IMG/VR virus record: IMGVR_UViG_3300017992_000074
Coordinates: 1 to 26,626 of that record
Direction: 5' to 3' (one strand)
Length of the DNA: 26,626 bases
DNA from: a virus
Made by a program: the position numbers and the translations under genes. Positions 1,790 through 24,962 of this stretch are shown here, piece after piece; the stretch's first letter is position 1, and every line of letters begins with the position of its first letter. The notes beneath the pieces were generated by a model. It was not told the DNA's origin, made no database searches, and was given only the letters and a program-made list of their open reading frames with translations.

Positions 1790-1800
1790 TATATTTTAAG
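1790..1800 (+). promoter_or_regulatory. TATATTTTAAG late-gene element before small terminase
   Basis: Copy 1 of the six-copy 11-mer, with G in place of the final A. It ends four bases before the ATG at 1805, the shortest spacing in the set. A looser related run, AATATTTTATC, lies just upstream at 1777-1787. If this is a promoter core, the transcript would be leaderless or nearly so. Confidence 0.5.
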
Positions 1801-1804
1801 GTAG

Positions 1805-2401
1805 ATGGCAAAGAAAGCGGTAAACAAGAATGTCCCGGCACCGAGAAAAAAACGACCTCGGAAAAGGACGGCGAGCGCCCCCGGGGGGAACCTAACACCC
1901 AAGCAGGAGAAGTTTTGTCATGTCTATATGGAGACCGGAAATGCATCCGAAGCATACCGAAAGTCATACAACTGTGAGAAGATGAAGCCGGAATCGGTGA
2001 ACCGACTTGCCAAAGCACAGCTGGATCACATCAAGATAGCCTCAAGAATACAAGAGTTGAAGGAGGAGCTGAAAGAGGTCTCTACGGTCAAGAAGGAAAG
2101 GCTTCTATATGAACTGGAAGCCATCACCACCTCGAAGATCACGGATTATGTGGAGTTGAAGAACGGGATGCTCCAATATAAAGATTTCGATAAGCTAACC
2201 GATCAACAAATACGAGCCATTGAGGGGATCAAATATAACAAATACGGCATCGAATTAAAACTACACGGAAAGTCCTGGTCCACCGAGCGAATTGCCAAGC
2301 TCTTGGGATATGAGGCACCCAAGAAGCTCGACCATACCACCAAAGGAGATAAGATCGACCAGGATAAGATCATAGTCCTCCCAGCCAATGGCCGAGATTA
2401 A
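1805..2401 (+). CDS. terS: Terminase small subunit (Terminase_2 type)
   Basis: A 198-residue DNA-packaging protein that recognises the phage genome and hands it to the large terminase. Residues 1-25 are a very basic tail. Residues 30-54 carry the family signature L-T-P-K-Q-E-K-F-C ... T-G-N-A-S-E-A-Y-R-K-S-Y, the helix-turn-helix of the Terminase_2 family. Charged helices over about 70-110 fit the oligomerisation core. The C-terminal part (about 110-198) is longer than in minimal members and probably contacts the large subunit. The 14-base overlap with the large terminase gene supports translational coupling. The element at 1790-1800 sits immediately upstream and an in-frame ATG at 1805 follows. 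Confidence 0.9.
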   Translation: MAKKAVNKNVPAPRKKRPRKRTASAPGGNLTPKQEKFCHVYMETGNASEAYRKSYNCEKMKPESVNRLAKAQLDHIKIASRIQELKEELKEVSTVKKERLLYELEAITTSKITDYVELKNGMLQYKDFDKLTDQQIRAIEGIKYNKYGIELKLHGKSWSTERIAKLLGYEAPKKLDHTTKGDKIDQDKIIVLPANGRD

Positions 2402-3896
2402 GGCCATATCTGCCCAGGAAGGTTTTCAGTCTGACTTTCTATCCAGCCCTGCCGACCTCGCCATCGGTGGGGGCGCGGCGGGAGCCGGCAAGTCGTTTGC
2501 CCTCCTGATGGAGTCCCTCCGCCATACCGGCAACCCCGACTTCGGGGGGGCCATCTTCCGAAAAACATATCCACAGATAAAGGCCCCGGGCGCCCTGTGG
2601 GATACCTCAATGAAGATCTACCCGGTTCCGGGGGGGCAACCCATGGAGTCATCCTATGAGTGGCGCTTCCCCTCCGGATCAAAGATCAAGTTCTCACACT
2701 TGGAGTATGAAAAGAACGTGCTGGATTGGCAGGGGTCACAGATACCGTTCATCGGCTTTGATGAGCTCACGCATTTCACGGAATACTCCTTCTTCTACCT
2801 CCTTTCTCGTAACCGGTCCACCTGTGGGGTCAACCCGTATGTGAGAGCCACATGCAACCCGGATCCAGACAGCTGGGTGGCCAACTTTATTGAGTGGTGG
2901 ATCGACCAGGACCACAACTCCCCCGGTTATGGCTTCCCCATCCCGGAGAGGGCTGGGAAGATACGATATTACATCAAGGAGGCCAATGAGTACATTTGGG
3001 GAAACACCAAGAGGGAGGTGCTGGATCAGGCTTCCCATATTGTTAAGGTCCTCCAGGAGGCTGACCCGACCATAAAACCGGATGACCTGGTGAAGGGCGT
3101 CACGTTCGTCCCGGGAACGATCTATGGCAACCGGGAGCTCCTACGTGCGGATCCTGGCTACCTGGGCAACCTATTGGCACAGGATGAGGCCACACAGCAA
3201 CAACTCCTCCACGGGAACTGGAAGGTAAGGGTCGATGGCACCGATCTGATCAATATACACAAGCTAAAGGAGACTTTCAAAAACGACACCGTCCCGGGTG
3301 GCCAGAGATGGATCACTGCAGATATCGCCATGAAGGGATCCGATCTGTTGGTAGTCTATGTGTGGGATGGCTTCCGCCTGATCGATTGTGAGGTCTTACC
3401 CATAGCTAGGGGGGATGATGTAATTGACTTGCTCAAGCGGATGGCTTCCTCCTACAGCGTCCCCAATGGCTGTATCATCTATGATGATGATGGCGCCGGC
3501 TCATTTATCGATGGCTTTATCCGCAATGCCAAGCCGTTCAATAATGGCCGCAAAGCCGTGATGAGGGAAAACTATAAGAACCTCAAAACACAGATGTATT
3601 ACAAGATGGCCGACAGAATAAAACACATGGGATACTATGTCACCCCGGCTGTGGCCAAGAAGATGGTCGGCACTAAAACCATCGAGCAACACCTCATGGA
3701 AGAACGCCGTGCCATCAAGCGGGATAAGGTCGATGAGGATGGCAAGTTGTGCATCATCCCCAAAGACAAGATGAAGGAGATAATCGGACATTCGCCCGAC
3801 TTTATGGACGCTTTCATGATGCGTGAATATGCTGAATACCTGGAGCCCGGATCAACGTCCACGGGCCTCAACAAAGCGTCCATGGGCTTCAGATAG
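2388..3896 (+). CDS. terL: Terminase large subunit (packaging ATPase-nuclease)
   Basis: A 502-residue packaging motor. The ATPase has Walker A G-G-A-A-G-A-G-K-S at residues 28-36 and Walker B F-I-G-F-D-E at 121-126. A coupling motif, R-A-T-C-N-P, follows at about 153-158. The C-terminal RNase H-like nuclease has its acidic residues in order: D312 in W-I-T-A-D-I-A, the D366-D368 cluster in I-I-Y-D-D-D-G-A-G, and D471/D474 in P-D-F-M-D-A-F. Length and motif order are typical and both active sites look intact. It acts at the portal vertex, translocating and cutting DNA. It overlaps the small subunit gene by 14 bases and precedes the portal gene by 28 bases that contain a TATATTTTAAA element. Confidence 0.95.
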   Translation: MAEIKAISAQEGFQSDFLSSPADLAIGGGAAGAGKSFALLMESLRHTGNPDFGGAIFRKTYPQIKAPGALWDTSMKIYPVPGGQPMESSYEWRFPSGSKIKFSHLEYEKNVLDWQGSQIPFIGFDELTHFTEYSFFYLLSRNRSTCGVNPYVRATCNPDPDSWVANFIEWWIDQDHNSPGYGFPIPERAGKIRYYIKEANEYIWGNTKREVLDQASHIVKVLQEADPTIKPDDLVKGVTFVPGTIYGNRELLRADPGYLGNLLAQDEATQQQLLHGNWKVRVDGTDLINIHKLKETFKNDTVPGGQRWITADIAMKGSDLLVVYVWDGFRLIDCEVLPIARGDDVIDLLKRMASSYSVPNGCIIYDDDGAGSFIDGFIRNAKPFNNGRKAVMRENYKNLKTQMYYKMADRIKHMGYYVTPAVAKKMVGTKTIEQHLMEERRAIKRDKVDEDGKLCIIPKDKMKEIIGHSPDFMDAFMMREYAEYLEPGSTSTGLNKASMGFR

Positions 3897-3902
3897 TCTG
3901 TT

Positions 3903-3913
3903 TATATTTTAAA
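3903..3913 (+). promoter_or_regulatory. TATATTTTAAA late-gene element before portal
   Basis: Copy 2 of the repeated 11-mer, exact. It fills the short gap between the large terminase stop and the portal ATG at 3925, with 11 bases between element and start. An ATG at 3918 is immediately followed by TAG and cannot serve as the start of a protein. Confidence 0.55.
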
Positions 3914-3924
3914 AGAAATGTAGA

Positions 3925-5355
3925 ATGCCCTCCATCCACGAAATTTTTACAGCACACTCTGAAGACCCGCAGAAGCTGATTGAGGTGCTATGTGTTGATA
4001 CCGCCGAGAACAGGGTGCCAGAGGAATACAAAAACGAGTATGAGGGTGAGCGTACCCGCCGACTTCATTCCGTGGGCACAAGGGAAATCAAGACTATCAA
4101 GCTGGTAGATGATAATGGGAAGGAGACCGGGCAAACCAAAACAATTTACCCCTCCAAGCTCGTCTACCCATACCCACAGAAGATTGTAAGAACAGCCACC
4201 CACTTCCTGTTCGGGGGCAAAATGACCGTTTCGGCCGAGGAGAATGATGACGCATTGAATGAGTTCGCCCGGGTATGGGATAAGGACCTGAAGATGCAAA
4301 CAAACCTAAAGCGCCTGGCCCGTATATGTATGACCGAGACAAAGGCCGCCCTCCTATTCTATCCCCAGCCCATCAGGGATGAGACTTCCAGCACAAAGAA
4401 AACCAAGTATCTTAAGTTGAGGGTTGCCGTCCTGGACAATGAGTCTGGCGAGTTCTACCCCCACTTCGATGATTACGGGGATATGGACGCCTTCATCCGC
4501 AAGTTTCAGGTGGTGGATATCGAGGGTAAGAACACGGAGAAGGCACAGATCTACACCAAAGATCAGATCATCACCATAGTCAACGACTCGGGGTGGAATC
4601 ACGAGAAATCGGAAAAGAATCTTTTCGGTAAGATCCCCGTGGTATATGTGGAGCAGGATCTCCCCGAGTGGGAGGCCGTGGCCTCACTGATCGATGATTA
4701 TGAGATGCGTATATCCCGCCTGGCGGATACAAACGACTACTTTGCCGAACCCCTACTAAAAATATTTGGCAATGTACGCAAGGCCCCGGGGAAGGAAGAA
4801 GTTGGTAAGGTGATTGAGTTTGAGATGAAAGCTGACCTGGATGGTAAGATATCCCATGGTGATGCTGAGTATGCCACCTGGGACCACACCCCCGAGAGTA
4901 TCAAGCTGGAGATGGATGAAGTCAAGGAGGGAATATTCTCCATGACCAGCACCCCGGACCTTTCCTTCAACAATGTCAAAGGGGTGAACGTGACCTCCGG
5001 GAAAGCCCTTGAGTTCATGTTCATGGACGCCATCATGAAGAGGGAGGAGAAGGGTGAGATTTTCTACGATGCGCTCAAAAGGGCCATCTCCGTTGTAGTT
5101 GCCGGGATATCCGGATACACCACTGTAAAGCTGGATGGTAAACTTAATGCCGATGAGATCGATGTTGAATTCACCGACCAGCTGCCAGATGATATGCTCG
5201 ACACCATTGACTCCCTTGTGGCAGCCACAGGTGGTAAACCTATTCTGAGCCAGGAAACCGCCGCCGGCCTGAGCCCATTCACCAAGGACCCGAAGGAGGA
5301 GATCGAGAGGCTCAAGGCGGAACAGGTAGTACCAAACGAATCATTTCAAATATAA
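3925..5355 (+). CDS. Portal protein (SPP1 gp6-like)
   Basis: A 476-residue protein whose length and layout fit the SPP1 gp6-like portal family, the dodecameric ring through which DNA enters and leaves the head. The conserved N-terminal wing reads Y-P-Y-P-Q-K-I-V-R-T-A-T-H-F-L-F-G-G (about residues 82-99). It is followed by a long helical region (about 110-145) and a mixed segment containing the N-D-S-G-W-N-H-E and G-K-I-P-V-V-Y-V motifs, typical of the family. The C-terminal third has the long helix and tunnel-loop-like region, then an acidic tail. It lies between the terminase and the MuF-type protein, the usual order. It starts at 3925 under its own TATATTTTAAA element. Confidence 0.88.
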   Translation: MPSIHEIFTAHSEDPQKLIEVLCVDTAENRVPEEYKNEYEGERTRRLHSVGTREIKTIKLVDDNGKETGQTKTIYPSKLVYPYPQKIVRTATHFLFGGKMTVSAEENDDALNEFARVWDKDLKMQTNLKRLARICMTETKAALLFYPQPIRDETSSTKKTKYLKLRVAVLDNESGEFYPHFDDYGDMDAFIRKFQVVDIEGKNTEKAQIYTKDQIITIVNDSGWNHEKSEKNLFGKIPVVYVEQDLPEWEAVASLIDDYEMRISRLADTNDYFAEPLLKIFGNVRKAPGKEEVGKVIEFEMKADLDGKISHGDAEYATWDHTPESIKLEMDEVKEGIFSMTSTPDLSFNNVKGVNVTSGKALEFMFMDAIMKREEKGEIFYDALKRAISVVVAGISGYTTVKLDGKLNADEIDVEFTDQLPDDMLDTIDSLVAATGGKPILSQETAAGLSPFTKDPKEEIERLKAEQVVPNESFQI

Positions 5356-5357
5356 TT

Positions 5358-5750
5358 ATGGAAGCAAAGAAAATTTTAACCGAATTCTTACAGGCCTGGG
5401 TTGATCAGGACTACAAACTGATGTACAAACTATCACAGAAGACCTGGGCAGATAAAAATCCTGTCAAGCAGCTGGAGTGGTTATTCAGGGATTCCATTTT
5501 GAAGGATTTCAACATCTTTTCCACAAGCTATGTGAGCGGATCCAGCATGAAGTATGGTGTTGACCTGACCCTGAACGATGATACTAAGCTTATGAGCCTA
5601 ATCAACGTGATTTGTGAAGCCGCTCCACTAAAACCGGCTCCATGGGGTGAATGGGGTGTTAATCCCTCTTCAGTGCTGAATATAGTGCAGAAAGTTACCC
5701 CAAAGGCTGCCAGCAAAGAAGTAAAGGGCAAATCGAATGCCAAAAAGTAA
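5358..5750 (+). CDS. Hypothetical protein, possibly NTF2-like, between portal and MuF genes
   Basis: A 130-residue protein starting two bases after the portal stop and overlapping the next gene by 14 bases, so it is clearly part of the portal operon. Residues 1-50 form amphipathic helices with several Trp residues (F-L-Q-A-W, K-T-W, L-E-W-L-F). Beta strands follow (about 50-85), then a W-G-E-W-G motif near 106-110 and a lysine-rich tail. The helix-then-curved-sheet pattern resembles the NTF2-like/SnoaL fold, but this is a guess from sequence pattern. A role in head assembly is suggested only by context. No signal peptide or membrane segment is seen. Confidence 0.6.
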   Translation: MEAKKILTEFLQAWVDQDYKLMYKLSQKTWADKNPVKQLEWLFRDSILKDFNIFSTSYVSGSSMKYGVDLTLNDDTKLMSLINVICEAAPLKPAPWGEWGVNPSSVLNIVQKVTPKAASKEVKGKSNAKK

Positions 5751-7938
5751 ATGGGATCCTCGCGAATGGGAACGAAAGCTCATGCAGATGATCCGCGACC
5801 AGGAGGCCGGTGTCGCACAAATATTCAATGAGTTTATCAATGCCTCCTCCCCCACCCTTGCCCGTTACAAACCGCCAAAGACAGGCGGTGTGTGGTATCG
5901 TAATAAGTCCATTGAGAAGGTATTGGATGATCAATTGCAGGATCTTCATCTAAAGCTCTCCAGGTATCTCAAAGCACAGTCAACCACCGCATGGGAGCTT
6001 TCTTCCAGGAAGACGGACCTGTTGGTAGCCGACTATGTCCATGGTATGAACATCTCCGAGGTAGCCCGTGAAGGGCTCTTTGATCGCAATGCAAAAGCAT
6101 TGGAGGCGTTCCAGAAACGACGGGTAGGGAACCTGGATCCATCAGCCAGGATCTGGAAGGTATGCGATCAAGCGAAGGAGAACATTGAGTACTATCTCCA
6201 GAGCGGTATCGGGGCCGGTCAGGGTGCATCACAGATCTCCCGCGATGTGCGTGGTATGATGAAGGACCCGGACAAGCTATTCCGGAGGGTGCGGGATCCG
6301 GAGACGGGCAAGCTCAAGCCCTCCCGGCCGATGAAGAACTACCACCCGGGACGAGGCAAATACCGCTCTAGCTATAAGAACGCACTTCGAATGGTCCGCA
6401 CGGAAACAAACATGGCCTATCGCTTTGCCGATCAGGAGCGATGGAAGAAGATGGACTTCGTGATTGGGTATGAAGTCAGGCTGTCCGGATCCCACCCGGA
6501 GTTTGATATCTGTTTTACAGCATGGAACGTAAAAGTGATGACATCAGAAGGTCCGAAGAATATCGTGAGCGTAAAGGTGGGCGACCTTGTCCTTACACAT
6601 AAGGGTAAATATCAAAGAGTTACTAAGCTATATAGATCGACCATATATGAGGTGAAAAAGACTGAAATATCATATAAATGGATGTATGATAATAGAGGAA
6701 AGGAGCATTTAATTAGCGCAACATATAATCATCCATTTCTGGTGAATGGTGAGTGGAAGAGGATATCTGAAATAAAAGAGGGGGATAAAGTTAAAGTTCT
6801 GGCTAATAAATGTAAAAGTTGCGGCACCCTTATTCCCCACCATAGAGAATATTGCTCAAAATCATGTGCAAGCCTTAATACAGCCACAAACCAATGGAAA
6901 AATGAAGATCACAGGAAAGGTGTTTCAAAAAAAAGACAGAAGGTTATTGCCGAGAATAATGGCAGGATTCCCTGGCTAAAAGAGTATGTAGCATCAGGAA
7001 AGAATATAGATAATCTTTTAAACCCATATACTATCAAAAAAAGAGTCGCCACGCTTAAGAAGAATATTGCTAAAAAAGTTGCTAAAGGAGAGTTCCACTT
7101 TCAGGATCCAGAAGTGCATAAAAGGGCAAACCAAGCTCTCGGCAAATACCACAATTCCACATTTATTGAGAAAAAGATTGAGTGGTTGCTTGGGGAAAAG
7201 GGTATTGATTTTGAAAAGGGAGTTGTTCTGGAGCGTAAAGCGTTGAATAAGTTTGGCCGCCCACGGATATTTAAGCCTGACTTTGTATTACCCGGATATG
7301 ATATCGTGATTGAATGTGATGGGGAGTATTGGCACCAGGACAAAGAGGCCGATTTAGCGAGGCAGAAAGAGATTGAAGATATGGGATATCGGGTCCTGAG
7401 ATTTCCGGGAAAGCGTATTAGAGAAGATCTGAAATCGTGTAGCGAAGAGATAGATAGAGTATTAATGAACCATAATGGTGAGTATGAATTCATGGACGTT
7501 GAGATATCCCACGTTCGTCACTATACGCAGAAACAATCTACTCCCATTACCAAATATAATCTTGAAGTTGAAAATGACAACAGCTATATAGTAAATGGTT
7601 TTGTTGTACACAATTGCGACTCCATGGTCGGGAAGTACCCGAAAACTTTCGTTTTCGGAGGTTGGCATCCAAACTGCTATTGCCACACAGTACCCATCCT
7701 TGCCGAGCCGGACGCCTTCGTGGAACAATTAGTGTCGGACAAACCCGTCAAGGGTCATATACGATCTATCCCAGGACAGGCCCGTCAGTATATCCAGAAC
7801 AACACGGTCCAAATTAAAAGACTATCCACCACACCCTATTGGGTCAAAGACAACTTCACACTTAAGGATGGGAAGTATATTCCACGAAAGGCACTTAAGA
7901 TTATTCCTAAAGGTGTGCTGAAAGCTAATGTAAAATGA
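5737..7938 (+). CDS. MuF-type phage head morphogenesis protein interrupted by an intein
   Basis: The 733-residue precursor consists of a MuF-like (SPP1 gp7-like) head protein of 365 residues split by a 368-residue intein. The N-extein (1-258) is largely helical and ends in the conserved H-P-E-F-D-I. The C-extein (627-733) resumes with C-D-S-M-V-G and reaches H-P-N-C-Y-C-H-T, the His/Cys signature that closes the MuF domain. Such proteins sit near the portal and may be ejected or help head assembly. Reading stays open across the intein with no stop. The start at 5737 is supported by continuous coding and the 14-base overlap with the upstream gene; the ATG at 5751 is out of frame. It ends with ATGA coupling to the next gene. 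Splicing is needed to rebuild the His...Cys-Asp...Cys motif, so function depends on it. Confidence 0.85.
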   Translation: MPKSKWDPREWERKLMQMIRDQEAGVAQIFNEFINASSPTLARYKPPKTGGVWYRNKSIEKVLDDQLQDLHLKLSRYLKAQSTTAWELSSRKTDLLVADYVHGMNISEVAREGLFDRNAKALEAFQKRRVGNLDPSARIWKVCDQAKENIEYYLQSGIGAGQGASQISRDVRGMMKDPDKLFRRVRDPETGKLKPSRPMKNYHPGRGKYRSSYKNALRMVRTETNMAYRFADQERWKKMDFVIGYEVRLSGSHPEFDICFTAWNVKVMTSEGPKNIVSVKVGDLVLTHKGKYQRVTKLYRSTIYEVKKTEISYKWMYDNRGKEHLISATYNHPFLVNGEWKRISEIKEGDKVKVLANKCKSCGTLIPHHREYCSKSCASLNTATNQWKNEDHRKGVSKKRQKVIAENNGRIPWLKEYVASGKNIDNLLNPYTIKKRVATLKKNIAKKVAKGEFHFQDPEVHKRANQALGKYHNSTFIEKKIEWLLGEKGIDFEKGVVLERKALNKFGRPRIFKPDFVLPGYDIVIECDGEYWHQDKEADLARQKEIEDMGYRVLRFPGKRIREDLKSCSEEIDRVLMNHNGEYEFMDVEISHVRHYTQKQSTPITKYNLEVENDNSYIVNGFVVHNCDSMVGKYPKTFVFGGWHPNCYCHTVPILAEPDAFVEQLVSDKPVKGHIRSIPGQARQYIQNNTVQIKRLSTTPYWVKDNFTLKDGKYIPRKALKIIPKGVLKANVK
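6511..7614 (+). mobile_element. Intein with zinc-ribbon, DNA-binding repeats and Vsr-like (EDxHD) homing endonuclease
   Basis: In precursor numbering the intein spans C259 to N626. Splicing motifs are complete: Cys1 (C259), block B T-Y-N-H at 329-332, block F Y-N-L-E-V-E-N-D-N-S-Y near the end, block G V-V-H-N with H625-N626, and C627 as the +1 nucleophile. This is a standard class 1 intein. The middle holds a possible zinc site (C359, C362, C373, C377) and then three basic helical segments of about 30 residues resembling NUMOD-like DNA-binding repeats. A nuclease domain follows at about 475-575. It has F-K-P-D-F (512-516), I-E-C-D-G-E-Y-W-H (525-533) and G-Y-R-V-L-R-F, as in very-short-patch-repair-like/EDxHD homing enzymes, with E478, D515, D528 and H533 as candidate active residues. 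A 60-base sample inside (6601-6660) is 32% GC versus 63% just upstream (6301-6360), consistent with transfer from another genome. Confidence 0.9.
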
Positions 7939-8195: not shown

Positions 8196-8202
8196 ACCGA
8201 GA

Positions 8203-8213
8203 TATATTTTAAA
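8203..8213 (+). promoter_or_regulatory. TATATTTTAAA late-gene element before small membrane protein
   Basis: Copy 3 of the repeated 11-mer, exact, seven bases after the stop of the preceding gene and seven bases before the ATG at 8221. Its presence is the strongest support that the very short downstream reading frame is a real gene. Confidence 0.55.
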
Positions 8214-8220
8214 GTAAAAG

Positions 8221-8358
8221 ATGCAAGATTTACCCAGATGGGCCGAGGCCGCACTGGCGATCGGGATCCCATTGAGTGCTCTGGCCCTCTCATTTTTCTT
8301 ATCCCGTAAGGAAACCAGGACGAAGGCCAAGAAGCGGGGCAACAAATACCACCTCTAA
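8221..8358 (+). CDS. Small single-pass membrane protein, 45 residues
   Basis: A short frame easily missed by length filters. Residues 1-8 are polar, residues 9-28 form one hydrophobic segment (A-E-A-A-L-A-I-G-I-P-L-S-A-L-A-L-S-F-F-L), and residues 29-45 are strongly basic (R-K ... R-T-K-A-K-K-R-G-N-K). By the positive-inside rule the tail should stay in the cytoplasm, with the N-terminus out. It has its own TATATTTTAAA element and is followed after 18 bases by the element of the scaffold gene. It could be a holin-like, antiholin-like or membrane-modifying protein. Its place inside the head module is odd for a lysis gene, so function is open. Confidence 0.6.
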   Translation: MQDLPRWAEAALAIGIPLSALALSFFLSRKETRTKAKKRGNKYHL

Positions 8359-8368
8359 AAAAATCTGA

Positions 8369-8398
8369 GGCGCTCTTATATTTTAAAGAGAAAGCGCC
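8369..8398 (+). repeat. Inverted repeat enclosing the scaffold-gene TATATTTTAAA element
   Basis: GGCGCT at 8369-8374 is complementary to AGCGCC at 8393-8398, and CTT at 8375-8377 can pair further with AAG at 8386-8388. The 11-mer element lies in the loop. This could be an operator-like dyad or an RNA hairpin just before the ATG at 8400. The arms are plain to see; the function is not. Confidence 0.35.
8377..8387 (+). promoter_or_regulatory. TATATTTTAAA late-gene element before scaffold
   Basis: Copy 4 of the repeated 11-mer, exact, 12 bases before the ATG at 8400 and only 174 bases after copy 3. Two elements this close would give the scaffold and capsid genes an extra boost of expression if they are promoters. 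Confidence 0.55.
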
Positions 8399-8399
8399 A

Positions 8400-9065
8400 A
8401 TGAAACAAAAATTGTTAGAGGCCCTGAAAACCAAATTCAATGGGGTTCAGGACTCAATCCTTGACAGGCAGGCCACCAAGATGGCTAAAACTGTCACCTC
8501 AGAGGATCAGATCGAGACCGCAATCAGCGGGGTCACTTTTGACACTCTCCTCCAATCAGAAACAGATCGCCGGGTTTTAGAAGCTTCCGAAACCGCAGTC
8601 AAGAACTACGAGAAGAAGCACAAACTGAAGGACGGCAAAACCACCGAAAAGCCAAAGGATCCAGATCCGGACCCAGACACAGAAACGGGGGACGGCAAAG
8701 AAAAGATCCCTGCCTACATGAAGGAATTCATGAGGGAGCAGAAGGAGCTCAAAGAGCGATTGGAGAAACAAGAAAAGGATCGGGAGATTTCAAGTAAGAG
8801 GGCCGAGGCCAAGGAGCTGTTAAAGGCTTCCAAGATTCCGGACAAGCTCAAAGAGAAATGGCTCAAAAGGGTTGACCTCAGCGATGAGGAAACATCCCTG
8901 GAGGACCAGGTGAAGGAGCTTGAAACGGAGTACCTGGATTTGAAGCAGGAGCATATCAATGATTCTGTGGATGGCGGCCAAGGGGAAAAAGGCGGCGAGG
9001 TCGCCGACTCGGACATGAATGATTTCCTAAGCAGTGAGTTTCCTGAGACGCCAAAAGAATCCTAA
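8400..9065 (+). CDS. Capsid scaffolding protein (predicted)
   Basis: A 221-residue, highly charged, low-aromatic protein in the scaffold position between portal/MuF genes and the capsid genes. Residues 1-75 are helical and amphipathic. Residues 84-95 form a Pro/Asp-rich linker (D-P-D-P-D-P-D). Residues about 102-187 are a long Lys/Glu-rich predicted coiled coil. The tail is Gly/Glu-rich and ends in an acidic short helix (D-M-N-D-F-L-S-S-E-F). These are usual features of phage scaffolds, which guide procapsid assembly and are then lost. No protease motif is visible. Assignment rests on composition and gene order, not on a specific sequence signature. Confidence 0.75.
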   Translation: MKQKLLEALKTKFNGVQDSILDRQATKMAKTVTSEDQIETAISGVTFDTLLQSETDRRVLEASETAVKNYEKKHKLKDGKTTEKPKDPDPDPDTETGDGKEKIPAYMKEFMREQKELKERLEKQEKDREISSKRAEAKELLKASKIPDKLKEKWLKRVDLSDEETSLEDQVKELETEYLDLKQEHINDSVDGGQGEKGGEVADSDMNDFLSSEFPETPKES

Positions 9066-9086
9066 TCATTAACAAAAAAATTCGTC

Positions 9087-9677
9087 ATGTACGTAAAAGA
9101 AACTTCTGATACCGAAAGATCCCTGGCCGTTGAACTCGTGCTGGAGGATATTCCCGGTGGGGGTGTCGTAGATCCGGATGACTTCAAGGCAGCCACCACC
9201 TCCGTTGGAGAGGGTGCTCTTCTTGGGGTCGATTCCAGTGGAATCTACCACATCTTCAAAACGGCCGAGCTCTATGAGGATGAGGCCGATGATGAGACTG
9301 GCTACAAGGTCCTGAAGGGCCATGAGTTCAAGGTGGGTGATTTTATCACCGATTCTGGCCTTGTCGGTGCGGCTTATGCCATTACCGAAATCACTACCAC
9401 GGAGGATGATTATGACACCATCACTGTGGGTACCACCCTGGGTCATGCCATGCTTGATGGCGAGTGCCTTGTACAGGCAACGGCGCAAGCGGCTGCCGGA
9501 AGTGCGGCGTTTAAATACACCCCCGTGGGTATTTCAAGGAACTCCGTTGATCTGGCCAATGACAACCTGGGCTGTGGAATCATGGTCCGTGGAAGGGTTA
9601 GGGAATCACTGCTCCCCTACTCTGTGGATGCAAATATCAAGGCACTTTCCGCTTTGTCCTTAATCAGATTTGTGTAA
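9087..9677 (+). CDS. Putative capsid decoration / head-stabilising protein
   Basis: A 196-residue, beta-rich, acidic protein between scaffold and major capsid protein. It is rich in Gly, Thr, Ala and Asp, with strands such as G-A-L-L-G-V-D, Y-H-I-F-K-T-A-E-L-Y and G-H-E-F-K-V-G-D-F-I-T. The latter resemble small beta-tulip or barrel decoration proteins. The region around residues 135-160 is Ala-rich, as a loop or trimer interface might be. No signal peptide or coiled coil is seen. Position is the main evidence that it binds the capsid shell; a head fibre protein is an alternative. It starts 21 bases after the scaffold stop without a clear Shine-Dalgarno sequence. Confidence 0.6.
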   Translation: MYVKETSDTERSLAVELVLEDIPGGGVVDPDDFKAATTSVGEGALLGVDSSGIYHIFKTAELYEDEADDETGYKVLKGHEFKVGDFITDSGLVGAAYAITEITTTEDDYDTITVGTTLGHAMLDGECLVQATAQAAAGSAAFKYTPVGISRNSVDLANDNLGCGIMVRGRVRESLLPYSVDANIKALSALSLIRFV

Positions 9678-9696
9678 CCCTTAAAAAAGAGACAAA

Positions 9697-10788
9697 ATGG
9701 AACGTACACTTTTGAAAGAACTGAACAAGAAGAACCTTGAGGCTTACATCAATAAGAAGCGTGAAGCTCTTCTGAGAACCCTGTACTGGCAGCTGTTTTT
9801 CGGGCTGAAGTACACGACCCAACTCACATGGGAATCACTATCCGGCTCGGGCGGCGCCCCGGTGATGGCTGACGTTGTCGAGTACAATGCCAGCGCCCCC
9901 CTGAAAACCCGCAGGTCCGTAACAAAGATCAGCGGTGATATCCCCAAGATCACCCTGAAGAGGCAAATGGATGAGAAGGATCTGAATGACTATAACACCA
10001 TGAAGGCCATGGCCGGCGGTGGTAGTAAGGCGGATCTTTTGAAACTGGTCTTTGATGATGTCGACTTCTGCTACACCGGCGTGATGGCGCGTACAGAGCA
10101 CCTATGTATGCAGGCATTATCCTATGGATCCCTGGCCCTGACCGCCGCCAATAATAACGGCATCGTGACAGAGACCACCGTGGACTTTGGGATTCCCTCG
10201 GCGAACAAGACCGCAGTAGACACCATCTGGTCCACTGCCGCCTCGGCTACGCCGATTGCCGATATCAAGGAGAAGGTTGAAGATGCAAGGGAAAATGGAC
10301 ACGTTATCACCAAGATCATCATGGACCTGGCCACCTTCAACTATCTGGCGGCCACAGACGAGGCCAAGGAAACATTCGCCGGATGGCGGGGAGTAACCTC
10401 CAAGACCAAGCAATACCTGGATCTTGCTTCCGTGAATATGCTGCTTGAGGGTCACCTCTTGCCGCCCATCCAGATTGTGAACTCAGCCGTGAGGTTTGAG
10501 TCCCTGGCTCACGCCATGACCTCCGTGGCCCCCTGGAAAACGGGCTATGTCACCTTTGTGACCGACCAGCGCGTGGGGCAGGTGAAGCATGGGCCCATTG
10601 CCGAGGAGAACCTGGCTGCCGCCAAGAAGATAGCGGTCATGAATAAGCGTGATCATGTGCTGATCTCCAAGTGGAGCTCTCTGGATCCGGTGGCTGAATT
10701 CACCAAGGGTCAGGCCAATGCGTTCCCCACTTTCAATGATGTGGATTCGATCTACATCCTGAAAACAAACGCCACCTCCTGGTCATAA
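9697..10788 (+). CDS. Major capsid protein
   Basis: A 363-residue protein of the right length, composition and place for the HK97-fold shell protein, probably in the lambda gpE-like group. The N-terminal helix (about residues 1-35, Lys/Leu-rich) fits the N-arm. An E-loop-like stretch follows around 50-90 (P-V-M-A-D-V-V-E-Y, then I-P-K-I-T-L-K-R). The A and P domain patterns include D-I-K-E-K-V-E-D-A-R-E (about 190-200) and I-M-D-L-A-T-F-N-Y-L (about 208-217), followed by the G-H-L-L-P-P-I-Q-I-V motif. The late motif G-Y-V-T-F-V-T-D-Q-R-V-G (about 283-294) is typical of the final strands. It follows scaffold and decoration genes and precedes connectors. Confidence 0.85.
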   Translation: MERTLLKELNKKNLEAYINKKREALLRTLYWQLFFGLKYTTQLTWESLSGSGGAPVMADVVEYNASAPLKTRRSVTKISGDIPKITLKRQMDEKDLNDYNTMKAMAGGGSKADLLKLVFDDVDFCYTGVMARTEHLCMQALSYGSLALTAANNNGIVTETTVDFGIPSANKTAVDTIWSTAASATPIADIKEKVEDARENGHVITKIIMDLATFNYLAATDEAKETFAGWRGVTSKTKQYLDLASVNMLLEGHLLPPIQIVNSAVRFESLAHAMTSVAPWKTGYVTFVTDQRVGQVKHGPIAEENLAAAKKIAVMNKRDHVLISKWSSLDPVAEFTKGQANAFPTFNDVDSIYILKTNATSWS

Positions 10789-10806
10789 TTAACTGATGCG
10801 TAAAGC

Positions 10807-12227: not shown

Positions 12228-12230
12228 AAT

Positions 12231-12743: not shown

Positions 12744-12778
12744 CGGGACACCGTTTTTTACTATCATACTTCCACAGA

Positions 12779-12807
12779 AGAGGTCACCCCATAAAGGTGG
12801 CCTCTTT
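12779..12807 (+). terminator. Intrinsic terminator after tail tube gene
   Basis: AGAGGTCACC at 12779-12788 pairs with GGTGGCCTCT at 12796-12805 over 10 bp, one of them a G-U wobble, with a 7-base loop and a following T-run. The T-run merges directly into the next TATATTTTAAA element. Confidence 0.85.
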
Positions 12808-12818
12808 TATATTTTAAA
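12808..12818 (+). promoter_or_regulatory. TATATTTTAAA late-gene element before tail chaperone
   Basis: Copy 5 of the repeated 11-mer, exact, touching the T-run of the terminator at 12779-12807 and five bases before the ATG at 12824. A terminator followed at once by this element argues that the element restarts transcription for the tail module. Confidence 0.6.
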
Positions 12819-12823
12819 TTAAA

Positions 12824-13450
12824 ATGTTCAACGAGCTTCAAGACCTCCTTGGGCTACAAGCTGACACCATCGCCGATGTGCCCTTAGTAGTGCCTTTTGT
12901 GATCAATGACAGATCGATGCTTCCAAAGGAATTCCCCATTTCAAAGACAGAAACAGAAGAGGAGCTTAAACGCTTCTCCCTCCCATGGATCCGCGCCAAG
13001 ATCACCCGAAAGAAGACGGTTAAAAAAGAATATCGCACGGAGATCATCATTGAGCCACAAAAGACCGGCACCGTCATGCGTCTACACCCCCTCATTACCA
13101 AGATAGACCAGGAAGACCTGGAGAAGATATCGGTCAACCAAGACAGGCCGTTTGATGAGGCAGCCCCGGGCATCATGGCTAAGTATCATGACGTGATTGT
13201 GGAGGCCATATGCATTGGGATTTATAACAGAAAGGGCCCGTTCCCTGAGTATATGCCCGAGTTCTTAAGGGAGAATTGCACATGGAAGGACCTGCACTAT
13301 TTCCTTAACGCCATCCTTTTTCGGATGGGGACATTGTCTTTCATAAACTCTACCACTCTTCTGACGAAGATGGGCCCGGGAGCAGCGGAGATAATAGCCC
13401 TGCAGGAGAACCTGGAGAGCCACGGGAAGGAAAGGCTGATGACAGGCTGA
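12824..13450 (+). CDS. Tail assembly chaperone, short form (gpG-like)
   Basis: A 208-residue protein in the slot between tail tube and tape measure that holds lambda G/GT-like chaperones. These coat the tape measure during tail assembly and are absent from the finished tail. The N-terminal half is mixed with many Lys/Glu residues; the middle has L-H-P-L-I-T-K-I and a helix-rich region (about 105-185). Near its end it contains the heptamer GGGCCCG in the right frame for a -1 slip, and the -1 frame is open from 13309 to a stop at 13684-13686. Without slipping, translation stops at 13448-13450. Family assignment is from context and the overlapping frame, since these chaperones vary greatly in sequence. 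Confidence 0.75.
   Translation: MFNELQDLLGLQADTIADVPLVVPFVINDRSMLPKEFPISKTETEEELKRFSLPWIRAKITRKKTVKKEYRTEIIIEPQKTGTVMRLHPLITKIDQEDLEKISVNQDRPFDEAAPGIMAKYHDVIVEAICIGIYNRKGPFPEYMPEFLRENCTWKDLHYFLNAILFRMGTLSFINSTTLLTKMGPGAAEIIALQENLESHGKERLMTG
13372..13378 (+). promoter_or_regulatory. Candidate -1 frameshift site GGGCCCG
   Basis: The heptamer fits X-XXY-YYZ in the zero frame of the chaperone gene: G, then codons GGC (13373-13375) and CCG (13376-13378). After slipping, the codons would be GGG and CCC. It falls within the stretch 13309-13450 where both frames are open. GC-rich YYZ is not the most slippery type, so CTT-TTT at 13316-13321 remains an alternative. Confidence 0.45.
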
Positions 13451-13686: not shown

Positions 13687-13689
13687 GCC

Positions 13690-16600
13690 ATGCCGATACC
13701 CACAGGAAGCAATGACCTGTATTTTGCCACAGGGATAGACAACACCGGATTAATGCGTGGATCTCAGCAGGCCATTGGGATCATACGCGGTATGACCTCA
13801 CAGATCACCAAGGCAGATGTTTTCGCCGGTCTGGCGGCTGGCGCTGCAATAGCTTTCGCAAAGGCATCGGATGCCGTGAAAGACTTCGCCATTGAGTATG
13901 AGCACTCGATGAAGGAGGTGCAGACCATCTCCGCGGCCGTGCAGGGCAATTTTGACGGTTATGCAGACGCCATTGTTCGTATGTCCACCGAGGTGCCTCA
14001 ATCAGCTAATGAGCTGGCCAAGGCCTATTATCAGATCGTCTCTGCCGGATACGATGGTGCTGAGGGGCTCAGGCTTTTGGAGACCTCCGCCAAGGGGGCC
14101 GTTGGGGGCGTCTCTGATGTGGCAACCGTAGCCGACGGTATCACCACGGTGATGAACGCGTGGAAGCTATCCGCCGCACAAGCAGGTGAGGTTTCTGATA
14201 CGTTTTTTAATACGGTTAAGCTGGGTAAGACCACAATTAGTGAGCTGGCCAGCAATATAGCCCAGGTAGCCCCTCTGGCCGCCGCATATGGGGTGAGCTT
14301 CGAACAGATCGCCTCCGCTACGGCCACCCTGACCAAGCAGGGAACCTCCACATCCATGGCTATGACACAGTTGCGTCAAGCCCTTATCGCCGTAAATGAG
14401 CAGCTGGGGCAGGGATGGAGTGAATCATATACCCTCCAAGAGGCCTTTGACCTGGTTGCCGAAAAGGCCTCCTCTGCGGGAGTGGATATCAAAGAACTCA
14501 CCGGAAGGGTTGAGGGTGCGCTGGCCATCATGGCCACAACTGGGCAGAACGCCAGGGGTGCAGCTGAGGACCTTGAGACTTATGCCAAGGCGGTGGGTGC
14601 CTCAAGCGACGCCTTTAATATTATGATTGAGGACTCCGTGAATCAAAGCCAGCTGCTTAAGAACAACCTCCTGGCGGCCCTCAAACCCCTGGGTGACTTC
14701 TTTGCCGGCAAGGGGACTGATTTTGCCAAGACAATGAATGAGGCGTTTGCCTCTGGCAGGATTGAAGAGTTCACCAAGTATCTGGCCATTGCCACAACGG
14801 CCCTGGTTGCCTACAAGGTTACCACCAAGGCGGCGGCGGTCAGCAAGATTTCATTCATGCGGGCTATTGTGCGAACGCGTAAAGCACTACAAGCGTTCAA
14901 TGTGGTGGCCAAAGCCAATCCGATCGGGCTGGTGGTAACGGCCATCACGGCGGCCGCCACGGCCTTCCTGTTGTTCAGACAGAGGGCAGCCGAAGCCTCC
15001 AAGGAATTCAGGGAATTCACCGCAGAGTCGGCTCGTCAGAAAATAGAGATGGAGGGGCTGTTCAGGATCCTGGGAAAAACAGCAAAAGGGACTGATGCAC
15101 ATAAGGAAGCCCTGGAGAGAATCAATGAGAAGTACGGGGACTATCTGCCCAACCTGCTTTCCGAGAAAAGCACCCTGGAGGATATCAAAACGGCCCACGA
15201 AGAGGCTCAGAAAGCCATGGAGAATCGGCTTACCTCCGCGGCCATGACTGAGGCCCTGGAGAGTGCTACTAAAGAGGCTATCAATGCCCAAGCCGGAATA
15301 AAGGGCAAGCTATTGGAGGGGCTGGCTGATAGGCTGGGTGACGAAGCGGCCGGCTTGGCGGTAAACAATTTTGATGTCCTGGTCGGAAAATTCAAGGAGC
15401 TGGATGAGGCCTACAAGAAGCTCATGTCGGAGGGCAACACCGCTGAGGCGGGGAGAAAATGGGCGGAGCTACAGAAGGGTGTACGTGAATTTGTTGACAC
15501 GTTCACGGGTGGGAAGGATTATAACCTGGTGTTCAATCTGGCGGAGCAAATGGTCATTGAACAGGGAAACCTGGAAGCAAAAGCACAGGAGATCCGGGAC
15601 TTATACAAAGGATTTTTTACTGATGACAATCTTTTCGGTGGGACATCCGGCTTTTTTAATGGTGGTGGCCCCGGAGGGAAGGGTGGCTTTCAGATTCTGA
15701 ATGTAGAAGATCTGGAGAAGCAGCTGGACGCGGCGAAAAAAGCCTTTCAGGAGCTTGCGCGCCTTCGTGCAGCTGGCCTTGAGGGGGAGTCAGGTGATCA
15801 ATATGATGTCTTCACCCAGTATGGGGATTCGTTTGATGAGTACCTGGCCTATATGAAAGGCCAGTACAGGGAGTTTGGTGCTCAGCTGAAGATTATCAAC
15901 CTGGAGTTATCAGAGGGGATCATTGAGGCCAACCGCAAGATCCAGGAATGGTATAAGGATATGGCCGATGAGGCAAAGGATGAGTGGGATGAAGCATATC
16001 AGTCAATGGCCAAAAATCTTGACAAGCTGACCTCCCAAATCGAGAAGGACATCCAGATCAGCGTCAATAAGGAATCCTTTGATGAGGTTGACAAGGTGTT
16101 CCGGTTTTTGGGAAAGACATTTGAGTTCAAGCAGTCGGAGATAGAGGGCCTGGAGCGTGACATGAACTACTTCGGACAGACCATGGGAAAGCTGTCGGGG
16201 GTCATCGGTAAATTTAGTGATGAAACAGGTCAAGCAGTGGCCTCCATGGGGCAGATCGTTTCCAATGCGGGCGCTATCGCCAATTATATAGCTACCGGAG
16301 ACACGCTCACCCTGATCAATGGGATCATTGGTATTGTGGATGGATTGGTAGATTTCTTTAATGAAATTGCCGGAAAGAAGGCGGCGGCCCAGGCGGAGCA
16401 GATGGCACAGCAGGCGGAACGCATTTCTTATGCCGTGGATAGGATAAACAAATCCCTTCAGGATCAGTACTATTATATTCAGCGGATCAACGGGGTGCCC
16501 GTCTTCAAAGATGCCGAGCAATCCATAGATCGGATGCGGGACGGCATTGACTCCTTGGTCGCCTCACTAAACAATGTGGACATCACCATTGATCTGCCGG

Positions 16601-17382
16601 GGAGCGATATCGTTCCCACCCTAGACACTTCCAACTGGGATCTGGCCGATTATTATGACGCACTACGGAAGTGGGGCTCTATCATGAACGATGAGGTCAG
16701 GGATCAGATCCAGTCGACCCTCGATCAGATCTATGATTATGAAAAAGCCATCGAGGAGATGGAGTTACAGATCAAGATCGACCTGGTAGGCTTTGACATC
16801 AACACATTAGTGGATGATGTGATGGGTATGTTTCAAGAGATGGAGCGTGGGGCCCATGATTTCGGCGCCACCTTCGAGGAGATCATGCAAAAGTCCCTTC
16901 TCAACTCCTTCCAACAGACACATGTCGCCCGCATTATGCAGGAGTTCTATGATGAGCTGTACGCCGCCATGGAGTCCCCGGCTAAAAGGGCTGACGCGAG
17001 AAACTCATATGGGAATATTGACCCAGGCGAGTATGAGGATCTGGAGGCTTCCTGGCAGGCGAAGAGCGAGGCCCTGCAGAACCAGTATGAGTTCATGCTC
17101 AGATTCATGGAGAATATGGGGATGGATATCAGCAACCTGACAGGTGCCGGTGGGGAGGATCCCAACAGCCTGTCGGGCGCCATCCGCAGGAGCCTGACCG
17201 AGGAGACGGGCACCATCCTGGCCGGACGTATGAACACCATCATGCTTGACACCAGGGCGATGGCCGAGGGGATGCAATTAATGACCTCCCATCTGGAACG
17301 AATAGAGGCAAACACCTATCACAACAGACATTTGGATTATATACGGGCAGACATTGCAGACATTAAAAGGCAATTTACCTGA
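13690..17382 (+). CDS. Tail tape measure protein (TP901-type)
   Basis: At 1230 residues this is the second-longest gene here. It has the TP901-like tape-measure core over about residues 60-330: Y-E-H-S-M-K-E-V-Q-T-I, A-K-A-Y-Y-Q-I-V-S-A-G-Y, and S-E-L-A-S-N-I-A-Q-V-A-P-L-A-A. Hydrophobic segments at about 412-429 and 858-890 could insert in a membrane during ejection. Long charged helices fill the rest, with a Gly-rich break near 650-665 and a C-terminal coiled coil (E-R-I-E-A-N). At about 0.15 nm per residue the tail would be near 185 nm, so this is a long-tailed siphovirus; that is an estimate from family knowledge. No lytic-transglycosylase or peptidase motif is evident. The start is three bases after the frameshifted chaperone; the stop overlaps the next ATG by one base (TGATG). 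Confidence 0.93.
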   Translation: MPIPTGSNDLYFATGIDNTGLMRGSQQAIGIIRGMTSQITKADVFAGLAAGAAIAFAKASDAVKDFAIEYEHSMKEVQTISAAVQGNFDGYADAIVRMSTEVPQSANELAKAYYQIVSAGYDGAEGLRLLETSAKGAVGGVSDVATVADGITTVMNAWKLSAAQAGEVSDTFFNTVKLGKTTISELASNIAQVAPLAAAYGVSFEQIASATATLTKQGTSTSMAMTQLRQALIAVNEQLGQGWSESYTLQEAFDLVAEKASSAGVDIKELTGRVEGALAIMATTGQNARGAAEDLETYAKAVGASSDAFNIMIEDSVNQSQLLKNNLLAALKPLGDFFAGKGTDFAKTMNEAFASGRIEEFTKYLAIATTALVAYKVTTKAAAVSKISFMRAIVRTRKALQAFNVVAKANPIGLVVTAITAAATAFLLFRQRAAEASKEFREFTAESARQKIEMEGLFRILGKTAKGTDAHKEALERINEKYGDYLPNLLSEKSTLEDIKTAHEEAQKAMENRLTSAAMTEALESATKEAINAQAGIKGKLLEGLADRLGDEAAGLAVNNFDVLVGKFKELDEAYKKLMSEGNTAEAGRKWAELQKGVREFVDTFTGGKDYNLVFNLAEQMVIEQGNLEAKAQEIRDLYKGFFTDDNLFGGTSGFFNGGGPGGKGGFQILNVEDLEKQLDAAKKAFQELARLRAAGLEGESGDQYDVFTQYGDSFDEYLAYMKGQYREFGAQLKIINLELSEGIIEANRKIQEWYKDMADEAKDEWDEAYQSMAKNLDKLTSQIEKDIQISVNKESFDEVDKVFRFLGKTFEFKQSEIEGLERDMNYFGQTMGKLSGVIGKFSDETGQAVASMGQIVSNAGAIANYIATGDTLTLINGIIGIVDGLVDFFNEIAGKKAAAQAEQMAQQAERISYAVDRINKSLQDQYYYIQRINGVPVFKDAEQSIDRMRDGIDSLVASLNNVDITIDLPGSDIVPTLDTSNWDLADYYDALRKWGSIMNDEVRDQIQSTLDQIYDYEKAIEEMELQIKIDLVGFDINTLVDDVMGMFQEMERGAHDFGATFEEIMQKSLLNSFQQTHVARIMQEFYDELYAAMESPAKRADARNSYGNIDPGEYEDLEASWQAKSEALQNQYEFMLRFMENMGMDISNLTGAGGEDPNSLSGAIRRSLTEETGTILAGRMNTIMLDTRAMAEGMQLMTSHLERIEANTYHNRHLDYIRADIADIKRQFT

Positions 17383-20722: not shown

Positions 20723-20723
20723 C

Positions 20724-23700: not shown

Positions 23701-24854
23701 ATGGGTCTAACACCTCTTGGGCTACCCCGCCCAGTTCTACTCTGTGGACGCGGACGGGAACAGATTTATCACCAACAACAGCGGGTGATAATATTTTGTT
23801 AGGCTCTGGCGATTTTATAAAGTTCGGAAGCTCTGCAACACAAATTTACGGCACAACAACATCAATGGTCGTTACCGTTAACAGCACGAACCGATTAACG
23901 TTTTCATCCGGTCTGTTATCATCCAATACAACGTTTTCACCGCTTATCAACAAATCGTATAGTTTAGGGTCTGGCTCAAGGTTTTGGCATCATGGTTATT
24001 TAGATACGTTATATGTAAGCGATGTAAGTACGTTAATGGGTAAAGACGGATCGAACAATTTGTTTTTCACGGATGCCGTTACCGGCACTAAAACCCTGGC
24101 AGAATTGGCCGCAAGTGGTGGAACGGTTGCTGATTCATCTTGGACATCAATATCAGCCGACACCATTAATTCACTTAACTATATACCGATCGGAACAGGT
24201 AAATTTGAATTGCGGGGTGGGTATTCTGGAAATAGCGGATTATTGATTGACTATGATGACGAAAGGTCTGAGTTATATGGTCCTGTATATTGGCTTGACA
24301 TGACGGGCCCGGACTTTAAAACCAGTGCGGAAGGGTCTATATTTTCGGTGAGGCAATCATCGCAAACCACCCACGGAGAAAAGGAAACAACAGTTTACGA
24401 AGTTTTGCGGATTGTGGGACTATCATCATTACCCGCATTTTCAGGTGATCCTGGAAGGCTTTCGGTAAGCACGGCCGATAGTGCTTTATATTATCATGAT
24501 GGTTCAGAGTGGAGCAGGCTAAACGGGATCCCTCTTTATGATACCATGAAGGTCGAAACGGGCTCTACCTATACATTAGTGCTTGGTGATGCGCAAGAAA
24601 TGGTCATTTCAGAGATTGATGGCGGTTCTGCCATAACAGTTCCGCCAAACTCAAGTGTTGCATTCCCGATAGGAACGCGAATCCGCATTTCAAAGATTGG
24701 GTCAACGGGAAATTGCAATATAAATGAGGGGTCTGGCGTAACTATTAATCATTGGGAAACGGCCCCAGCCGTGCGCAATTACGGCACAGGTGAACTGATA
24801 AAGATCGACACTGATGAATGGATGCTGACCGGTGACATCATAAATGATGCATAG
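20724..24854 (+). CDS. Large tail fibre / adhesin with N-terminal signal peptide and beta-helix
   Basis: A 1376-residue protein if started at the ATG 20724; an upstream in-frame ATG at 20610 would overlap the previous gene by 113 bases and bury the signal peptide, and AAAGGAAA precedes 20724. Residues 1-21 form a signal peptide ending A-L-G before Q22. Residues 22-267 carry fibre motifs (T-N-P-H-E-V near 102-107, N-G-S-N-W). From 268 to about 615 the sequence looks like a right-handed beta-helix (V-Y-I-S-Q-S-G-S-D, then P-F-L-T-T-K-K-A-V), as in pectate-lyase-like depolymerases and receptor-binding domains. Two diverged ~90-residue repeats follow (712-895), then shaft sequence and a C-terminal cap (R-I-R-I-S-K-I-G). 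The protein likely binds the host surface. A signal peptide on a tail fibre is unusual. GC falls in the beta-helix (32% at 22021-22080 versus 58% at 21181-21240), suggesting domain exchange. Confidence 0.8.
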   Translation: MKRNIFALLAMIFLAATTALGQNTPFDSLDVTTSSANSDQFVVVRGEDTYRSTKQVIFQDAEDERGILEDSIDSNRAKIAGNDVDIASNAANITTNTNHRLDVTTNPHEVNINQVIQGTSNGQIIKWNGSNWYLGTDESGGGGTTYTFTEGVDEASGTVRMDVDGLTEENVLQDSDFVPFYDGSVMGHRRVTVGNLASHIEFDSTYIHSRVDGAEDSIAVHRTELNNLSDSISKHTDTLQVHQDQLAGLNLYYENQTGEVTLIDTLYRVYISQSGSDITGDGSSGAPFLTTKKAVESITSYTASYPGRFAFIYGAGTWMQGDIFPYLDRVNSHNTPIYIVGTSVIGDTINVTHPGVGTQSYFRFTTDSILVGDLSRTFLGVSVNPALGAVASYPIISNTASTFMACGTSTLVGEDRFLVTLGTKFQTSSSQTSYNFRNDVNFFNIEFIQSEAQASWQFGKNGSVSFFSCKFTSDYQAYDQLGIAGQGDVWRCIIEHDGSASSGDALEFSGSSTNTVAYSYLYSPTDRTGGSQGLEVRQGVTIDVYSCAFEGFDEAIKNDGSSPMALGAIYAKENNTLFHIHDPRRQFITETENVWTAGLDSIICEDVLRLFYFNDVYDAGRDIYLPHLKAGGYDNFSALSKFKNNTLDLENLTAVAVGDGIRKILVDTIHTENLNLDGLPAGKQASQLYFDSSTGDVTYGDTITGGGGGGSGTVTSVAAGSGLDFSTITTSGSVTLGTPSSISPSSTNSVTSTSHTHALTGLGTLATQNTVNLGTDVTGNLPVGNLAGGSGASSSTFWRGDGTWAAPAGGGTVTSVSGGNGMDFTTITGSGSVTMGTPSTLTLASTNGLSANSHTHALSISNFSSSAAGLAPASGGGTTNYLRADGSWAAPPGGGMVYPGAGIPVSTGSAWGASITDNSTNWNTAYGWGDHSGLYDATGTASGLISTHESTYNHANYNTAYAHVSLTNNPHSVDETDVLPSQATHSGKFLTTDGSNTSWATPPSSTLWTRTGTDLSPTTAGDNILLGSGDFIKFGSSATQIYGTTTSMVVTVNSTNRLTFSSGLLSSNTTFSPLINKSYSLGSGSRFWHHGYLDTLYVSDVSTLMGKDGSNNLFFTDAVTGTKTLAELAASGGTVADSSWTSISADTINSLNYIPIGTGKFELRGGYSGNSGLLIDYDDERSELYGPVYWLDMTGPDFKTSAEGSIFSVRQSSQTTHGEKETTVYEVLRIVGLSSLPAFSGDPGRLSVSTADSALYYHDGSEWSRLNGIPLYDTMKVETGSTYTLVLGDAQEMVISEIDGGSAITVPPNSSVAFPIGTRIRISKIGSTGNCNINEGSGVTINHWETAPAVRNYGTGELIKIDTDEWMLTGDIINDA
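22857..23408 (+). repeat. Two diverged fibre repeat units within the large fibre gene
   Basis: Unit 1 spans 22857-23153 (99 codons) and unit 2 spans 23154-23408 (85 codons). Each opens with G-T-V-T-S-V, then F-(S/T)-T-I-T-x-S-G-S-V-T-(L/M)-G-T-P-S and S-H-T-H-A-L, and closes with D-G-(T/S)-W-A-A-P. A third partial ending, T-T-D-G-S-N-T-S-W-A-T-P, occurs further on. Such modules form extended phage fibre shafts. Confidence 0.8.
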
Positions 24855-24904
24855 GCGCCCATGATTATTCCTTTCACTAAGGGTTTTTCTTATCCCAGAT
24901 AACG

Positions 24905-24947
24905 GCCATTGTGGGGTCCTGAAATGGACCCTGTGATGGCTTTTTTT
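24905..24947 (+). terminator. Intrinsic terminator after the large fibre gene
   Basis: A 15-bp stem (24905-24919 with 24926-24940), six-base loop TGAAAT and seven T residues. Four consecutive pairs in the middle are G-U wobbles. These pair only in the + strand RNA; on the opposite strand they become A-C mismatches, so the terminator is directional. Confidence 0.85.
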
Positions 24948-24951
24948 CAAA

Positions 24952-24962
24952 TATATTTTAAA
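24952..24962 (+). promoter_or_regulatory. TATATTTTAAA late-gene element before small exported protein
   Basis: Copy 6 of the repeated 11-mer, exact, five bases after the T-run of the terminator at 24905-24947 and 11 bases before the ATG at 24974. It repeats the terminator-then-element arrangement seen at 12779-12818. Confidence 0.6.

Follow-up and report, generated by a model that had tools for sequence, protein, structure and literature searches.

Genes and features of the window

The stretch of DNA analysed here (the window) comes from a virus record of 26.6 kb and has the gene order of a siphophage late region, running from terS and terL through the portal, a MuF-like head protein, the scaffold and the capsid to the tail and tape measure genes. 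The genes to which the analysis refers are listed below.

986–1750, + strand: sigma-factor-like protein of 254 aa with a GTG start, the proposed late sigma factor
1805–2401, + strand: terminase small subunit, terS (PF03592, E=2e-21)
2388–3896, + strand: terminase large subunit, terL, overlapping terS and without an element of its own (phrog_979, E=6e-95)
3925–5355, + strand: portal protein, SPP1 gp6-like (PF05133, E=1.5e-51)
8221–8358, + strand: small ORF MQDLPRWAEAALAIGIPLSALALSFFLSRK..., 45 aa, with one hydrophobic stretch
8400–9065, + strand: scaffold-like protein (phrog_5824, E=2e-43; phrog_172 scaffold, E=1e-3)
12824–13450, + strand: first gene of the tail operon, upstream of the tape measure
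13690–17382: tape measure (PF10145)
24974–25411, + strand: distal protein with a signal-peptide-like N-terminus

The gene at 9087 and the major capsid protein gene (9697–10788), both 3′ of the scaffold gene, likewise have no element of their own. At 5737–7938 an intein, comprising Hint splicing blocks and a Vsr/DUF559-like homing endonuclease domain, splits the MuF-like head morphogenesis protein.

A six-copy element precedes the late genes

The 11-mer TATATTTTAAR is present in exactly six copies in the window, all on the + strand and none on the − strand, compared with 0.02 copies expected from dinucleotide shuffles. Every copy is intergenic, with none inside a gene, in line with the initial annotation. 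Allowing up to two mismatches yields 19 sites against 6.8 by chance, a smaller surplus than that of the exact copies, indicating that the signal resides in the near-exact copies. The copies, and the two hairpins that adjoin them, are as follows, with predicted transcription starts and leader lengths derived below.

1790–1800, + strand: probable late promoter −10-like element TATATTTTAAG of terS; predicted start ~1803, 2-nt leader
3903–3913, + strand: probable late promoter element of the portal gene; predicted start ~3916, 9-nt leader containing AUG-UAG
8203–8213, + strand: probable late promoter element before the 45-aa ORF; predicted start ~8216, 5-nt leader
8377–8387, + strand: probable late promoter element of the scaffold gene, within the inverted repeat GGCGCT/AGCGCC
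12776–12808, + strand: intrinsic terminator-like hairpin, 13 bp stem, overlapping the 12808 element by 1 base
12808–12818, + strand: probable late promoter element of the tail operon; predicted start ~12821, 3-nt leader
24904–24941, + strand: intrinsic terminator-like hairpin, 16 bp stem, before the 24952 element
24952–24962, + strand: probable late promoter element before 24974–25411; predicted start ~24965, 9-nt leader

Each copy had been described as lying 4–12 nt before an ATG, and this range holds, with corrected gaps between the end of the 11-mer and the start codon of 4, 11, 7, 12, 5, and 11 nt. The ATG at 3918, 4 nt past the 3903 copy, reads ATG-TAG, however, and the portal starts at 3925 (gap 11). 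This start-stop AUG-UAG (3918–3923) would sit within the predicted portal leader, just 5′ of the true start. The gene past the 8203 copy is the 45-aa ORF, which starts at 8221. Two copies had been reported to follow terminators at once; those at 12808 and 24952 lie directly 3′ of the two strongest and longest terminator-like hairpins of the window.

Conservation across related phages

Relatives were retrieved through terL, the sigma-like protein, and the portal, with portal upstream regions picked by portal homology alone and no motif filter, and were sorted by eye into Bacteroidales-type and control, going by how similar the portals were and by the type of leader. TATATTTTA is present in all 34 distinct Bacteroidales-type portal upstream regions, 31 times exactly and three times with a single mismatch, and three further phages have TCTATTTTA in the same place upstream of the portal. 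In contrast, exact TATATTTTA is found in none of 19 homologous portal regions from non-Bacteroidota-type phages with Shine-Dalgarno-type leaders (AAAGGAG), 12 of which come within one mismatch, as their AT-richness predicts. By strand, there are 39 distinct sites on the gene strand (+) and none on the other in window-like phages, 114 and 17 respectively in Bacteroides-type phages, and 12 and 28 in control phages, where two sites lie near an ATG.

The genes found 3′ of the element in relatives are terS, portal, scaffold, tape measure, and the tail gene orthologous to 12824, with orthologous elements before terS in records L008, L040, and L081, and before the tail operon in L014, L076, L078, and L081. 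The sigma-like gene is present in most element-bearing phages and in none of eight Shine-Dalgarno-type control records (18–49 kb); in several element-bearing fragments, whose records are possibly or probably incomplete, no sigma-like gene was detected. As a check on new data, a prophage in genome G160 was found only through its sigma-like gene, the one new full-length match in the search of Bacteroidales genomes described below. This gene is followed by seven TATATTTTA sites on the same strand, and homologues of the portal, scaffold, tail, and tape-measure genes can be recognised after four of them. In three phages (G008, G009, and G011), by contrast, the sigma gene is on the opposite strand and distant from the late genes.

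A putative sigma factor encoded upstream of terS

The ORF at 986–1750, overlooked in the initial annotation, ends 40 bases 5′ of the first copy of the element, and its product comprises a sigma2-like part (residues 4–80), a sigma4-like part (residues 116–182), and an extra C-terminal HTH (residues 193–228). The HTH matches the D5-like family phrog_323 (E=8e-9); residues 1–160 match nothing in Pfam, NCBIfam, or PHROG, and no sigma family match to the protein was found in these collections. An AlphaFold2 model, built from an alignment of 41 relatives, shows three parts (pLDDT 87, pTM 0.40), with the top 12 Foldseek matches all being sigma factors or sigma-containing complexes, at weak or modest E-values (best 0.016). 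Structural alignment with VIA-align matches residues 1–95 to RpoE (Z 8.8, rmsd 2.8 over 80 residues) and residues 115–186 to region 4 of sigma-H (Z 9.4, rmsd 2.6 over 70 residues) and of SigR (Z 8.6). The Pfam models Sigma70_r2 and Sigma70_r4 weakly match one of the 41 family members (E 0.027 and 0.003), and a sequence search of the PDB gave no convincing relative. Because the Foldseek E-values are weak and the pTM is 0.40, the sigma assignment rests on the two separate domain matches together with gene context, and on these structural and contextual grounds we read the product as a putative ECF-like sigma factor with an extra HTH.

The family is phage-borne rather than a host sigma factor, as it is rare in a profile search of 393 Bacteroidales genomes (five at E<=1e-6, of which two are seed genomes and two are partial or weak), and a 395-genome sample of the phylum returned the seeds only. 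Annotated phages yielded only one unannotated gut contig, and no member was found in plasmids. In three Bacteroides-type records (L039:2990, L069:8073, L090:3036) the next late promoter (ATA TTT TAA) shares bases with the end of the sigma gene (...I-F-stop).

Anatomy of the probable promoters and predicted start sites

The initial annotation found no second box upstream of the element. This stands for the window's subgroup, where positional and k-mer tests of 33 distinct sites revealed nothing clearly above chance (no |z|>3), but not for the Bacteroides-type phages, in which an AAA box is strongly conserved at −16 to −14 from the element's first T, with a spacer of 13 (A at 71–77%; 245/336 versus a background of 28%). 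The sigma-like proteins of the two subgroups are most divergent in sigma4 (27% identity, compared with 53% in sigma2), and the C-terminal HTH is confined to the window's subgroup, the Bacteroides-type protein lacking it. Comparison of the subgroups thus pairs the conserved −10 element with sigma2, the better conserved domain, and a change in the upstream box with a change in sigma4.

Counting the first T of the element as index 0, no start codon falls at index 11–12, seven fall at exactly 13, and most lie at 15–25. The seven at index 13 mostly belong to terS and represent at least two protein families without a mutual match here, while a single start codon at index 10 (L014) is followed by a second in-frame ATG at 16. 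An A-tract occupies index 13–16 whether the ATG is near or far. Host −7 boxes lie 4–5 nt from the transcription start (PMC6847099), a spacing that predicts a start at index 12–13, and the lower bound on start codon position points to transcription starting at index 13, 5 nt past TATATTTTA. From this we infer leaders of 2, 9, 5, 10, 3, and 9 nt for the six window transcripts, implying late mRNA leaders of 0–10 nt in general. The lower bound on start-codon distance indirectly supports the suggestion, made in the initial annotation, that the transcripts would be leaderless or near-leaderless.

Probable late promoters served by a putative phage sigma factor

The element is very probably a −10-type late promoter box, with the phage's own ECF-like sigma factor (986–1750) as its reader. 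What the computation shows is the repeat itself, the conservation of the element before orthologous late genes, its presence in phages that encode a sigma-like protein and absence from non-Bacteroidota-type homologues, the G160 prophage, and the predicted fold, and this computational evidence supports the late promoter and phage sigma factor envisaged in the initial annotation. We infer that the sigma-like protein binds RNA polymerase and the element DNA, that transcripts start where proposed, and that they are late. The phage would make its own ECF-like sigma factor, which would displace the host primary sigma factor on host RNA polymerase and guide the polymerase to TATATTTTA(A) before the terminase, portal, scaffold, tail, and distal operons, with initiation ~13 nt from the element's first T, usually at an A, leaving a late mRNA leader of 0–10 nt. 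In the window's subgroup the element would work without a conserved −35-like box, with the Bacteroides-type phages adding the AAA box 13 nt upstream.

Recognition by the host primary sigma factor (sigma-ABfr) of the element as a relaxed TAnnTTTG, perhaps with the phage protein as an activator, is improbable. The element does share the TAnnTTT core of Bacteroidota primary sigma promoters (TTTG / TAnnTTTG), and its predicted start is as far away as the start from a host box. Promoters of F. johnsoniae also contain AT-rich motifs at ~−28 that are similar to the AAA box seen in Bacteroides-type phages (PMC6847099). However, in host −7 boxes, TAHHTTTG, the G is nearly invariant (PMC6847099); all 34 portal sites have a T at this position, and TAHHTTTG is found in none of those regions, which disfavours the relaxed host box put forward in the initial annotation as the main alternative. 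The element differs further in its extra A and in lacking a −33 TTTG, none being found at that spacing upstream of the six window copies; moreover, no upstream position is conserved in the window's subgroup, and TAHHTTTG occurs in the window at chance level. Within 320 kb of the B. ihuae chromosome, TATATTTTA is absent near host start codons (none of ten sites lies 9–30 nt before an ATG), and TATATTTG and TATATTTT are intergenic at 26 of 52 and 13 of 50 sites respectively, counts which argue against a relaxed host box and bear on that version rather than on a host sigma factor aided by an activator.

An RNA-level translation signal, such as an A/U-rich initiation enhancer, would explain the proximity of the element to start codons and the A-tract 3′ of it, and Bacteroidota, which lack Shine-Dalgarno sequences, prefer A-rich leaders (PMC6847099). 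Such a signal is nonetheless highly unlikely, as just six of the 12 gene starts preceded by a gap of at least ~18 nt have the element, the major capsid gene (9697) lacks it, and the distance to the ATG varies between 4 and 12 nt whilst the element is invariant. The A-tract keeps to index 13–15 from the element even where the ATG lies at index 24 or beyond, two copies follow terminators immediately, and Bacteroides-type phages couple the element to a box lying another 13 nt upstream. It is exceedingly doubtful that the element serves as a binding site for a phage activator, such as one acting via the extra D5-like HTH (phrog_323) of the window's sigma-like protein, since the same element accompanies a sigma-like protein without this HTH in Bacteroides-type phages and respects a minimum spacing from gene starts, as a −10 box does.

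Comparison with known systems

The late promoters of T4 (TATAAATA) are AT-rich and −10-only, and are read by the phage sigma factor gp55 with gp33/gp45, gp55 being a sigma2-only, clamp-dependent protein. The promoter proposed here resembles them in being an AT-rich, −10-only late promoter. The gp36 protein of phiEco32 (PMC8948821) is likewise a phage-encoded sigma factor that reads single-box promoters (tAATGTAtA) before middle and late operons, with the start 6–8 bp downstream, yet gp36 lacks region 4, whereas the window protein has a sigma4-like domain and an extra HTH. phiEco32 is also an enterobacterial podophage with a consensus unrelated to the window element, and near-leaderless spacing is not reported for it in the text consulted. 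The gp47 protein of phage 7-11 is a phage sigma factor with region 4 and bipartite late promoters, GTAAtg-(16)-aCTA, whose two boxes occupy genome positions similar to those of single-box relatives, paralleling the two subgroups seen here (PMC8948821). The consensus and host of 7-11 differ, however, and no sequence relationship was found here.

The kind of system is known, while the sigma family and its host group, the start codons that nearly abut the element, and the split between one-box and two-box promoters look new within the literature searched. No earlier description of such a sigma/promoter pair, or of late control in Bacteroidales temperate phages, was found in the open-access literature searched, and late gene control in these phages, whose hosts are dominant gut bacteria, seems undescribed. 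A sigma-promoter pair distinct from that of the host would provide a late-gene marker for finding and ordering gut-phage operons, and may serve as a tool for controlled expression in Bacteroides. It would also test how Bacteroidota ribosomes start on leaders of 0–10 nt; in B. thetaiotaomicron only ~3.7% of 5′ UTRs fall below 10 nt (PMC7366714).

The probable scaffold promoter lies within an inverted repeat

The inverted repeat GGCGCT (8369–8374) / AGCGCC (8393–8398) encloses the scaffold promoter, which alone among the promoters of the window's subgroup sits in such a repeat, with the 3′ arm ending at or just before the ATG. The arms vary among phages and stay complementary (GGCGCT/AGCGCC, AAGCTT/AAGCTT, AAAGCA/TGCTTT), giving a mean stem score of 14.1 versus 7.6 in shuffles, of which 0/3000 scored as high. 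Swapping arm partners between phages reaches the observed stem score in 144 of 5040 arrangements, so the covariation is only moderate. Read-through RNA could fold at this hairpin, hiding the start codon, and RNA begun at the scaffold element would have no 5′ arm, and hence the hairpin possibly silences read-through mRNA. The arrangement resembles that of the T4 genes e and soc, whose late promoters are nested in hairpins that silence read-through messages. Tentatively, and with a little less than even confidence, we suggest that a new phage sigma family, carried by Bacteroidales temperate phages, runs the whole near-leaderless (in some phages fully leaderless) late programme from a nearly invariant single-box promoter, and that in window-like phages the scaffold hairpin also silences read-through, such that only late-initiated RNA would be translated.

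Element variants in related phages

At the same late genes, a sister group (L010, L012, L013, L087, and L089) carries TTCTATTTTA or CTCTATTTTA instead of TATATTTTA. Covariation between element variants (TTCTATTTTA in L010, TATACTTTA in L090) and sigma region 2 through a change of R/K73 to N or A was considered and rejected, and no residue-73 rule is claimed, because L183–L186 have Q with a normal element and L188 has K with a variant. The distant terL relative L020 (11262 bases) carries the 10-mer TTTACATTTA in 36 copies on one strand.
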